From assembly GCA_910575585.1 (NCBI GenBank), contig CAJTGF010000047.1, positions 1-40,217 on the forward strand: DNA of 40,217 nucleotides. Direction: 5' to 3'. Below the pieces are notes generated by a model. The model ran no database searches, had not been told where the DNA came from, and saw nothing but the letters and a program-made list of their open reading frames with translations. The position numbers and the translations under genes were made by a program. The stretch comes from Clostridiaceae bacterium (lineage in GTDB: Bacteria; Bacillota; Clostridia; Lachnospirales; Lachnospiraceae). Numbering within the stretch: position 1 is the first letter of the stretch; each line of letters starts with the position of its first letter. Positions 88 through 40,217 of the stretch are shown here, in pieces.

Positions 88-94
88 AATCTTT

Positions 95-115
95 TCCGGT
101 TTATCCGGGTTAGGA
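95..115 (-). repeat. Short dispersed repeat motif, copy 1
   Basis: On the minus strand this reads CCTAACCCGGATAAACCGGA. The same 20 bases occur on the plus strand at about 11266 and 39383, where they form the outer end of fold-back elements B and C. Here the flanking sequence differs from those two copies right after the motif, so this may be an end of the tnpA-bearing element or a relic. Confidence 0.7.
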
Positions 116-287
116 TATTTAGACGGCAACTCCCGAGAAACCTTTCGGTCACCCCCATCATAACTCAAAGTTTAGAAGGAAGAAAAACAGCGTATTGTAT
201 GGATAACATAATACCGAAAGCAGGTATTGGCAGGAAAGATTGCATTTAAGGATACGGGGACTGATCCGGAAAGCATGTCGGACAAAG

Positions 288-561
288 GATGTAAAGATAC
301 CATCTACTGACATCGGTGCCGCCGTATATGTCAGTAAGTAAGTTGGTGTAAAATTGGGAAAGGGAGCAGTTAGAGAAAATTACAGATGGAATATAAGGAG
401 TTGCATAAGGAATTTTTGGACGGCATCTGTGGGCAAAAGGATATTTTGTAGCAAACAGAGGAGATGTGACAGACCAGATCATACAAGAATATATACAGAA
501 TCGTTTCCTACCAAATTGTGCCAATACCTTTCCATCCAAGAAACAATTTAAGCCAGCATAA
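288..561 (+). pseudogene. Decayed IS200/IS605-type TnpA (Y1 HUH transposase) remnant
   Basis: Pieces of a small HUH transposase can be read on the plus strand, but only by changing frame and passing a stop. The clearest piece is near 425-561, with WAKGYFVANRGDVTDQIIQEYI followed after a short tail by TAA at 559-561. This resembles the C-terminal LWARGYFV...V(T)DE.I..YI block of IS200/IS605 TnpA. Upstream pieces include YVSK, an in-frame stop, a KGKGA-like patch near 345-365, and EYKELHKEF. A one-base frame error separates EYKELHKEF from GRHLWAKGY. The N-terminal half with the HUH motif is not recognisable. The remnant is directly followed by fold-back element A, so it may mark what once moved that element. 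The family call rests on motif memory, not a search. Confidence 0.6.
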
Positions 562-563
562 CT

Positions 564-741
564 TAAGCCAGCGAACCCTGCATTTGCCGAAGAGAGAGGC
601 GGTCCCGTCCGGGTGAATATATGCCATGGAGATGAGACCATAGAAAACAGGAGGGCCTAACCCCGAGTGTTTTCTGCTTTACTGGGCTCATCGGAATGTC
701 CGGCATATCTGAACCCGGACGGGACCGCCTCTCTCTTCGGC
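564..741. repeat. Fold-back element A (29-bp perfect inverted arms, conserved core)
   Basis: Arms at 586-614 and 713-741 are perfect 29-base inverted repeats. Inside, pairing continues imperfectly: ATATGCC near 618-624 with GGCATAT near 702-708, GATGAG near 631-636 with CTCATC near 687-692, and a terminal AGAAAACA/TGTTTTCT stem at about 642-675. The 29-base core at 611-639, beginning GGGTGAATATATGCC, recurs at 39912-39940 and, reversed with one mismatch, at 39568-39596. The arm sequence itself is not shared with elements B or C. The flank AGCCAGCGAA near 565-575 is also shared with the 39.8-kb copies. It lies between the tnpA remnant and the 3' end of the aldolase gene. Confidence 0.85.
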
Positions 742-809
742 CTCCCACTACGCCGCCTCATCTATCCCCCCAATTCCACTATCTTCCCACTTTCCTCAAC
801 AAATCATTA

Positions 810-11265: not shown

Positions 11266-11427
11266 CCTAACCCGGATAAACCGGAACTTTAAATTCGTTA
11301 TGTTGCTGTTTGGTTGAGTGTGCAAAGGGCGGGTTTCGTCGTGAAGCCAGTCAGAGAAGGAGAGATGTGCCGTCCCTCCCGGGCTTCACGACGAAATCCG
11401 CCCATTGCTCACTCAACAATACAGCAC
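11266..11427. repeat. Fold-back element B (minimal palindromic copy)
   Basis: The left end, CCTAACCCGGATAAACCGGA, and the sequence up to GGTTGAGTG near 11320 match element C at 39383-39440 with few changes. Arms at 11302-11348 and 11382-11427 are nearly perfect inverted repeats of about 46 bases, including GGGCGG followed by TTTCGTCGTGAAGCC, which is specific to this copy. The loop carries GCCAGTCAGAGAAGGAGAG (11346-11364), also found at 39882-39900. The outer part of both arms is shared with element C; the inner part is not. It lies about 15 bases past the dusB stop codon. Confidence 0.85.
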
Positions 11428-11442
11428 TTAAAGGTCTAACAA

Positions 11443-38439: not shown

Positions 38440-39387
38440 ATGGTATACGAAACATTTCAAACGAAGATCGCCAACACTCTGCAATCCCATCTGGGCGCTG
38501 ACTATCAGCTCATATTCCAGAAAGTCCCAAAGAACAACGGTATTCTTCTGGACGGCCTGTGCATCATCCAAAAAGACCGCAAAGCGTCGCCTACCATTTA
38601 TCTCAACAGTTACTATGATCGCTATCAGGAAGGGATTCCGTTTCACTCCATTATCAAAGAGATTCTTCAGATTTATCAGGACAATTCTTCTGTGACCAAT
38701 CTTGATTTTTCCATTCTCAATGATTTTTCCCGGCTGAAAGAAAAAGTTGTCTATAAGCTGATCCACACCGCATCCAACAAGCGTCTGCTGGCTGACATGC
38801 CCTCGGTTCCCTTTTTAGACTTATCCATTGTCTTTTATCTGTTCCTGGAAAAAAATGAATCCGGCCAGATGACGGCTCTGATCCACAATGATCACATGAA
38901 AGCCTGGGACACCAGTAAGGACGAACTGTACCGTCTTGCCGTGACCAACACGCCGGCTCTTCTTCCCGCCCGGCTAAGCACCATGGCGGAAGTCATGAAG
39001 ACCATAGCCAGAGAACATCTGGGCAGCGATTACCGGGAAGAGTTTCTTGACAGCCTGCTCTCACCCTGCGCGTTCTCGCCTTTGTATGTCCTGTCCAACT
39101 CCTCAGGCATCAGCGGCGCCGGCGCCGTCCTTTATCCCCATTTGCTAAAAAACTTCGCGGACACCATGAAAGCGGATCTTGTTATCCTTCCTTCCAGTGT
39201 CCACGAAGTCCTGCTGATACCCAATGATGAACATGTTTCCTTTGACGATCTGGCCGATACGGTGTCTCATATCAACCGCGCGGAAGTCCCTGTGGAAGAC
39301 CGCCTTTCCGACCAGATCTATCTCTATTCCAGAGAACGGGACGCCGTAATCTTCGCGGGACCGCCGGTATCCTCGATTCTGTCCTAA
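38440..39387 (+). CDS. DUF5688-like protein of unknown function
   Basis: The 315-residue soluble protein has no signal peptide or membrane span. Its N-terminal half matches what I know of the Lachnospiraceae DUF5688 family: a block of GILLDGLCIIQKDRKASPTIYL, then YYDRYQEG, and LADMPSVPFLDLSIVFYLFL. The C-terminal half includes YVLSNSSGISGAGAVLYP and LVILPSSVHEVLLIP. The function is unknown; these proteins often occur in several copies per genome. The ATG at 38440 with AAAGGAGGT is preferred over 38344. Its TAA stop (39385-39387) lies inside the first bases of the repeat cluster, so the last residues may have been changed by insertion. Confidence 0.78.
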   Translation: MVYETFQTKIANTLQSHLGADYQLIFQKVPKNNGILLDGLCIIQKDRKASPTIYLNSYYDRYQEGIPFHSIIKEILQIYQDNSSVTNLDFSILNDFSRLKEKVVYKLIHTASNKRLLADMPSVPFLDLSIVFYLFLEKNESGQMTALIHNDHMKAWDTSKDELYRLAVTNTPALLPARLSTMAEVMKTIAREHLGSDYREEFLDSLLSPCAFSPLYVLSNSSGISGAGAVLYPHLLKNFADTMKADLVILPSSVHEVLLIPNDEHVSFDDLADTVSHINRAEVPVEDRLSDQIYLYSRERDAVIFAGPPVSSILS

Positions 39388-39627
39388 CCCGGATAAACCG
39401 GAACTTTAAATTCGTCATGTTGCTGTATTGTTGAGTGAGCAATGGGCGGGGATTGTGGCGGAGCCCGGGAGGGAAGGGAGGCTGTGTGCCGTTCGGGTTC
39501 AGATATGCCAGACATTCCGATGAGCCCAAAGCGGAAATCAGGAGGGGTTAGGCCCTCCTGCTTTCCCGGTCTCATCTCCATGGCATAGATTCACCCGCCC
39601 GGCACACAGCCTCCCTTCCCTCCCGGG
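39383..39627. repeat. Fold-back element C (28-bp perfect inverted arms)
   Basis: The left end (39383-39450) matches element B. Arms at 39464-39491 and 39600-39627 are perfect 28-base inverted repeats, unlike those of A or B in sequence. Inside, the core (39568-39596) is the reverse complement of the A core with one mismatch, and CAGGAGGG/CCCTCCTG (39539-39560) makes a terminal stem. Read on the minus strand it has the same order as element A: arm, core, terminal stem, GGGCTCATC, GGCATATCTGAACCC, arm. It begins exactly at the stop codon of the DUF5688-like gene. Confidence 0.85.
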
Positions 39628-39883
39628 CAAAAGCAGAATTCGCTGGCCGGGATTTGCTCGCTTAAGGTGGTTTCGATAGGGAACGCCGTTTCGACTCTGT
39701 AGTGAAAAGATAACTGCTTTGTCTGCAGATCCTTTCAGGTTCACAGTAACATCGCCTTAACCTTACTCAACAATATACTTGAAGCCCTAAAAAGAAGATA
39801 TTTTTTGCTGCAAAGTTGAAGCAGCGTCCCCTACCGAAACCACCTTAAGTGAGCAAACCTTAGCCAGCGAATTCTGGTTTTGC
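39627..39883. repeat. Large inverted repeat with about 60-bp arms (MITE-like)
   Basis: GCAAAAGCAGAATTCGCTGG onward (39627-39686) is repeated inverted at 39824-39883 with a few mismatches, the best-kept part being GGTGGTTTCG next to TTAA. The 137-base interior has no open frame of note. Arms carry the AGCCAGCGAA sequence also found beside element A. Beyond the right arm a second core copy follows, so the whole 39568-39940 segment is a larger inverted structure. Confidence 0.8.
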
Positions 39884-39940
39884 CAGTCAGAGAAGGAGAG
39901 ATGTCCCGGCAGGGTGAATATATGCCATGGAGATGAGACC
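39882..39940 (+). repeat. Partial fold-back copy C' (loop segment plus core)
   Basis: GCCAGTCAGAGAAGGAGAG (from 39882) is identical to the loop of element B at 11346. It is followed by the 29-base core at 39912-39940, identical to element A at 611-639. No complementary arm follows: the sequence changes to unrelated AT-rich DNA at 39941, so this copy appears truncated. Confidence 0.8.
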
Positions 39941-40044
39941 CAATGTCATTAAGTTAAGCTGATTGAAAAAATCTCATCCTACGGTCTAACTCAAATTTAT
40001 CAATAAATTTAAGAAAAGGGGTTGACACAGAGACCAAAATGTGC

Positions 40045-40091
40045 GGCCGCTCTCGCTGCTGATTGTATTTTAAGAAGTAGCGAGAGCGGCC
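40045..40091. other. Perfect 13-bp hairpin ahead of the IS4-like transposase
   Basis: GGCCGCTCTCGCT (40045-40057) and AGCGAGAGCGGCC (40079-40091) are perfect inverted repeats with a 21-base loop. It lies 50 bases upstream of the transposase start and 20 bases inside a possible element end near 40020. Such hairpins can block read-through transcription into a transposase gene; no U-run is present. Confidence 0.65.
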
Positions 40092-40140
40092 CTTGATATT
40101 GAACTCAGAACTATCATTTCAATTTCAAGGAGGTACCTAT

Positions 40141-40217
40141 ATGTCATTCCCACATAAGGTTAAGTCCACTCTCTGGGCAATCGTGGACACCATGGACCGC
40201 AACTCTGAACGCTTCGT
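40141..40217 (+). CDS. IS4-like transposase, N-terminal fragment
   Basis: Twenty-five codons are in the window, beginning MSFPHKVKSTLWAIVDTMD and running off the right edge. The ATG follows AAGGAGGT at a good distance. The opening resembles the start of IS4-family DDE transposases of Clostridia (a K-V-K-S-x-L-W-x-I pattern), which is a recollection rather than a search. A hairpin and a possible element left end lie upstream. The match is short, so identity remains tentative. Confidence 0.55.
   Translation, partial: MSFPHKVKSTLWAIVDTMDRNSERF

Follow-up and report, generated by a model that had tools for sequence, protein, structure and literature searches.

We found that element A, a large hairpin in the window (the whole stretch of 40,217 nucleotides analysed here, which is contig C47 of a 6.13-Mb host genome in 253 contigs), is probably one hairpin of an inverted pair belonging to a palindromic, MITE-like mobile DNA that is decayed and non-autonomous. 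In this reading, its arms are homogenised by copying and its tip is selected as a strand-specific hairpin. Directly backed by our data are the structure, the dispersed copies, the head-to-head pairs of hairpins, the covariation of the tip across Lachnospiraceae, the terminal repeats and target duplications of relatives and the concerted arms. The two halves of the hairpin differ in behaviour: the outer arms look DNA-copied, and the tip looks selected.

A sequence-only reading had described element A as a hierarchical hairpin with perfect 29-bp arms, and the fold of 586-741 agrees, reaching -104.1 kcal/mol against a mean of -51.2 (sd 4.5) for 200 shuffles, none of which equalled it (z = -11.8), with 29 consecutive perfect outer pairs and stems nested inward. 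Within the window, only the downstream hairpin of a two-hairpin element is seen at element A (Table 1). The same reading was right that the arms of A and of element C differ around a related core, the element-C hairpin bearing other arms, but it had called the two cores nearly identical, while their matching segments (I3, I6, I9) are 80-84% alike. Its example of inner stems changing in step, AGAAAACA/TGTTTTCT in A versus CAGGAGGG/CCCTCCTG in C, was an error of register: CAGGAGGG is present in both cores, its pairing with CCCTCCTG alone is specific to C, and the position in C that corresponds to AGAAAACA of A reads GGAAAGCA. Genuine stepwise changes were found at other core pairs.

Table 1 Features of the repeat family and of the neighbouring IS200-type relic in the window.
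Feature	Positions	Strand	Remarks
Isolated end sequence TTCCGGTTTATCCGGGTTAGGA	94..115	+	
Decayed IS200-type relic	137..502	+	leader 137-185, tnpA pieces 185-502; Pfam Y1_Tnp 301-501, 39.2 bits, 3 stops
Element A inner flank	503..585	+	common to other A-type copies; 94% to C37 copy over 503-789
Element A hairpin	586..741	+	outer arms 586-614 / 713-741, 29 bp perfect, nested core between
Element A conserved tip (core)	618..709	+	106.3 bits against covariance model R1
Element A outer flank, toward element end	742..805	+	aligns with A-type copies to 789 (C37) or 805 (C36)
Collapsed derivative, tip-less junction of two element ends	11266..11439	-	
Element C terminal sequence TTAAAGTTCCGGTTTATCCGGGTTAGG	39383..39409	-	
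Element C hairpin, beta-type arms	39463..39628	-	tip about 39502-39589
Element C inner inverted repeats and middle	39629..39881	.	inverted repeat I1
Element C pair, second hairpin with gamma-type arm	39882..39940	+	breaks off within tip at 39940

Searching the own genome by BLAST with the 156 bases of element A, we obtained at least eight full-length same-strand matches of 96-100% identity, itself included, among the best 40 of 179 candidates; six of these have identical arms and two (on C17 and C1) variant arms. The arms are thus not private to this copy, as had been claimed, since the genome holds at least seven other full-length copies of the arm type, five of them identical. Nor are arms identical in all copies, the arm strings differing within this genome, and many further matches among the best 40 of 179 candidates carry other arms. 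A pattern for half of the core, with up to three mismatches, occurs at 160 sites in the own genome, G000 (79 on the plus and 81 on the minus strand; reversed-pattern control, 0), and is present in five of 26 genomes of the same genus, the own genome included, while the tip pattern was also found in at least 33 stretches from other genomes of Hungatella sp. Among the first 100 sites, 25 of the 26 neighbours less than 1000 bases apart are arranged minus-then-plus, one is minus-minus and none plus-then-minus (assessed by eye), so that two inverted palindromes form one unit, as in REPINs. In the minus-then-plus pairs that were fetched, the outer edges of the half-cores lie 404-841 bases apart, and from either side of the element an outer end is followed by a hairpin and an inner repeat, with a non-coding middle between the two inner repeats; the two hairpins bear different arms in the pairs examined.

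Stems of at least 17 bp were counted in 76 of the 81 distinct hairpins from the own-genome loci fetched, of 12-16 bp in one and of less than 12 bp in four, some of the latter being chimeras of two arm types. The 76 long-stem hairpins carry 24 arm strings, several of which are length or one-base variants of one another. In the other Hungatella loci fetched, ten of 22 hairpins have stems of at least 17 bp and twelve of less than 12 bp, which counts against a uniform maintenance of the arms, although this count misses stems with mismatched first pairs as well as loci truncated by a contig end. The sequence-only reading had named a lack of complementary arms in most copies as its refutation; in the own genome most copies have them, but in the other Hungatella loci fewer than half were scored with long stems. 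In one own-genome locus (L116, G000:C17:82200-84700), the two arms of an A-type pair carry identical rather than complementary bases at two adjacent positions, which might be the leftover of a template-switch error.

Concerted change of the arms was observed in the genome G132, where 25 hairpins were recognised among 30 loci, the other five loci (some at contig ends) showing none. Over arms of 66-161 bases, 2489 of 2538 pairs (98.1%) are Watson-Crick, with 22 A-C, 15 G-U and 12 other mismatches, in local alignments that are biased toward matches. The left arms of different copies are 63-91% identical where BLAST aligns them, often over part of the arm, and the mismatch between the arms of one copy is about ten times below the divergence between copies, which is not expected of independently evolving arms. 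In addition, G-U shows no excess over A-C, which is not expected of selection for an RNA duplex. Template-switch copying accounts for both observations, and the outer arms look like products of DNA copying; homogenisation of inverted-repeat arms by template switching has been described (PMC8604942, PMC7202029). An all-arm count in seven genomes (G-U 83, A-C 119) likewise does not favour RNA, and it was set aside because its alignments overrun the true stems. Two other origins of the arms were weakened. Nine G132 arms compared with their genome gave at least 68 matches (best 40 of 88 candidates), of which the strong ones were the arms themselves and most others plus/minus pairs from further hairpins, besides contig ends and some isolated weak matches, which speaks against captured gene fragments or guides, and many G132 arms are homologous between different copies, which speaks against copies of flanking host DNA.

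The tip behaves differently. When one whole element was used as BLAST query, its core segment alone was found in further genomes of the same genus, most clearly in G003, where the tip sits inside different 211-bp hairpins, and in G005. The tip of about 90 nt is thus a wider module set on unlike backbones, and a covariance model built on 34 sequences detected it in 20 of 397 Lachnospiraceae genomes, representing 18 of 334 genera, often with at least ten matches per genome. In an alignment of 116 matches (106 distinct tips), 97.0% of the cells pair, compared with 72.3% in shuffles and 36.5-45.2% in slid versions. Double-sided changes amount to 680 cells among the 106 distinct tips against 193 after shuffling. 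The number of pairs with such changes, 24 of 26, only slightly exceeds that of shuffles, which average 20.3 and reached at least 24 in 4 of 500 cases; this alignment was fitted to the covariance model and is thus biased toward pairing. An unfitted MAFFT alignment of 34 tips gave 96.4% pairing, and its double changes fell on 13 of the 26 pairs, compared with a mean of 6.6 in shuffles; further pair types were not above shuffles (20 versus 18.6). The claim that covarying stems around a conserved core are kept by selection or by copying is borne out, the pairing of the tip lying far above the slid controls. Some tips lack the inner hairpin and have a GCTTTTT-type loop with self-complementary arms of their own (L183 and L184 in G024, L186 in G008; seen by eye).

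Evidence for mobility came from relatives in G003, G001, G200 and G416, here called TIR-type elements, whose ends are TAGGTAATTGCG and its complement. A target duplication was found in 20 of 28 of these, compared with six of 756 mismatched flank pairs, where repeats of about 9-13 bases (a few longer) at most 4 bases from the ends were scored; in three more loci no pair of TIRs was recognised. The ends of window-type elements read CCTAA|CCCGG...GGGTCTAA, and a duplication was seen in one of 18 (mismatched control, 6%); because they show no target duplication, these elements either have a mode of movement unlike that of the TIR type or are of greater age. The end pattern closes with TTAGG at 44 of 46 sites, although the search pattern itself contains these bases. 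Among the matches listed from three genomes (G003 sites were outside the listing), no autonomous long element with TIR ends was recognised, and one spaced TIR pair that was inspected encloses, as judged by eye, an ORF for a MutS-like ATPase.

The strong covariation of the tip would also fit a structured RNA, a non-coding or leader RNA that is selected as RNA and merely carried by mobile elements. Over 2707 cells of the tip, the mismatches on the canonical strand are 32 G-U, 13 A-C and 69 others, ten of the G-U falling on one pair; the excess of G-U over A-C (p = 0.007) assumes independent cells, which they are not. With this excess, and with many conserved unpaired bases around the stems, the tip looks to be under selection, and the mild G-U excess speaks for some strand-specific constraint, as RNA would likewise give. 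A further point for RNA is that, in two genomes, copies lie in the sense direction immediately 5' of a start codon with its Shine-Dalgarno-like word: nine of ten copies in G200 and seven of seven in G416 have such a same-strand gene start no more than 90 bases from the element end, mostly at 26-34 bases, compared with 135 of 1331 random points in one direction. On the other side, G-U makes up just 1.2% of the 2707 cells beside 680 cells with double changes, a share that is low for an RNA helix, and the outer arms are without G-U excess. Moreover, the adjacent gene start in G003 is on the opposite strand in seven of ten copies, on the same strand in one and absent in two (one more locus was unrecognised), and a cis-acting leader RNA is disfavoured because these seven copies are antisense to the gene. 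A uniform placement near gene starts is not seen on other backbones either, with same-strand starts within about 200 bases of the tip in four of nine copies (G132), one of ten (G343), four of ten (G256), three of seven (G107) and two of six (G222).

Furthermore, Rfam 15 yielded no family at gathering threshold in the window, in line with the earlier statement that no named family fits, and none at 20 tip loci except TwoAYGGAY, located more than 1 kb from the tip. This TwoAYGGAY RNA (RF01731) lies at 2598-2758 of locus L194, about 1 kb from one tip copy. In lax mode, seven microRNA, snoRNA or lncRNA matches to 560-760 scored far below gathering (best MIR1858, E 0.00026) and were rejected. Overall, we regard selection as RNA as unlikely and prefer a tip that acts as folded DNA.

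Since unlike backbones carry the same tip, the tip might instead be a small mobile element in its own right, with the loops of pre-existing palindromes as its insertion sites and the arms being merely host or MITE palindromes. Versions of the TIR element without the core, of about 63 bp, do exist (L302 and L303 in G416), and Haloquadratum offers a precedent, with SMR-A repeats described as entering the palindromes of PATEs (PMC3119063). However, the short tip-less versions could equally be deletions, and the stem formed by the tip itself is apical and merges into the arms in the copies inspected; we consider such insertion distinctly improbable. L302 has a short flanking repeat and a Shine-Dalgarno-like word directly after it.

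A further alternative, which we hold to be doubtful although less so than the RNA reading, is an element of the IS200/IS605 type (HUH Y1), in which the hairpins would be transposase-recognised ends and the family REPIN- or PATE-like and driven by TnpA. Pfam Y1_Tnp matches occur at eleven places in the genome, one of them directly upstream of element A, and comparable tnpA relics lie between the hairpins of the C36 and C37 copies. In a related genome, locus L154 has an intact TnpA of 146 aa between two hairpins (the downstream one truncated), which scores 138 bits as IS200 type (cut-off 55) and 26 bits as RAYT (cut-off 80). The downstream hairpin has the same orientation relative to tnpA in all four cases, and the upstream hairpin was seen in three. 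Window-type elements are without duplications and stand beside a constant CCTAA, i.e., they share the lack of duplication and the fixed left-end motif of IS200/IS605 elements, and an insertion site is displayed at L118 (G000:C22:23400-25800), where an element is inserted within another's tip and paralogues provide the empty beside the occupied site; the TTAG flanking L118 on both sides is, however, also compatible with a 4-bp duplication.

Against this alternative, the IS200 has ends of its own: on the left ATTGTCTG, which the C36 copy contains in intact form, and on the right an end in which a palindrome is visible by eye. An A-type copy without tnpA match exists (C17, L116), TIR-type relatives do make target duplications, and the RAYT model (NF047646) stays below its cut-off for three TnpA proteins (26-36 versus 80 bits). 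An intact tnpA between hairpins was seen in L154 alone, beside the relics of C36, C37 and the window, and among the 25 elements taken from the site list no clear match appeared (best E 0.21); clear matches were confined to L146 and L151, both added for containing the gene. The relic beside element A would thus descend from an IS that had entered an ancestral element and then travelled with it, and would not be the element's own gene, because the IS200 owns both ends and no clear tnpA occurs in the 25 listed pairs.

Compared with known systems, MITEs, REPINs and PATEs are the nearest kinds, and the family is best described as a variant of these because none of them could be matched in every defining feature. 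Like MITEs, the elements are short, non-coding and of high copy number, with terminal inverted repeats, and the TIR-type relatives duplicate about 9-13 bases of their targets; unlike in MITEs, the parent transposase was not found among the TIR matches listed, a structured tip is common to unlike end types, and duplications are restricted to the TIR type (20/28, versus 1/18 in window-type elements). The paired inverted palindromes, the high copy number and the Y1 transposase gene beside some copies recall the REPIN/REP and RAYT system, whereas the present tnpA is of the IS200 type with a RAYT score under the cut-off. Integron attC sites have self-complementary arms of variable sequence around conserved features, and they resemble the family in this respect, by description only. 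The present hairpins of about 155 nt, with halves hundreds of bases apart, differ from REP hairpins, described as 21-65 nt (PMC6006769). PATEs are described with palindromes near their ends and no target duplication (PMC3119063), and window-type elements agree in both; here, however, the big hairpins lie about 100 bases inside and in inverted orientation, small palindromes near both ends, or IS605-like terminal hairpins, are suggested by eye only, and TIR-type relatives bear terminal repeats and duplications. Among the papers listed in our literature search, whose scope left out most subscription journals, none was recognised as describing the element.

For the MITE-like element that we favour, movement in trans by a putative enzyme may be proposed. 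The arms would be kept complementary mainly by template switching during replication, each new mutation being copied from arm to arm, and the tip would be kept by selection as a folded single strand for a putative trans-acting enzyme, with DNA, not RNA, as the presumed active form. More speculatively, and with little confidence, the family may be an undescribed superfamily of palindromic mobile DNA, in which the family-wide tip would serve as DNA turn-round for one cognate enzyme. This enzyme would relocate the element, in some genomes to a position immediately 5' of a Shine-Dalgarno site, and would also bring about the arm-to-arm copying, leaving each copy with ever-changing but matched arms. 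The hairpin separates, in one object, two causes of 'covariation', copying between arms and selection on the tip, which warns that covariation alone is no proof of RNA function, and it offers a natural system for measuring arm homogenisation. Landing just upstream of Shine-Dalgarno sites in several genomes would amount to an unusual rule of targeting and would bear on gene expression in gut bacteria.

The repeat family probably also breaks up assemblies, because copies lie near both ends (1 and 40217) of the window, which is an entire contig, and many listed sites are likewise at contig ends. For a viral origin, exact matching against viral_contigs returned 0 hits. At the right end of the window (39941-40217), CAATGTCATTAAG interrupts element C's second tip and is followed by the apparent start of another mobile element's gene and the contig end. 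The junction CCCAATGTCATTAAG recurs in a tip of G008 (L185), and this common junction suggests that a third element may have entered the tip.
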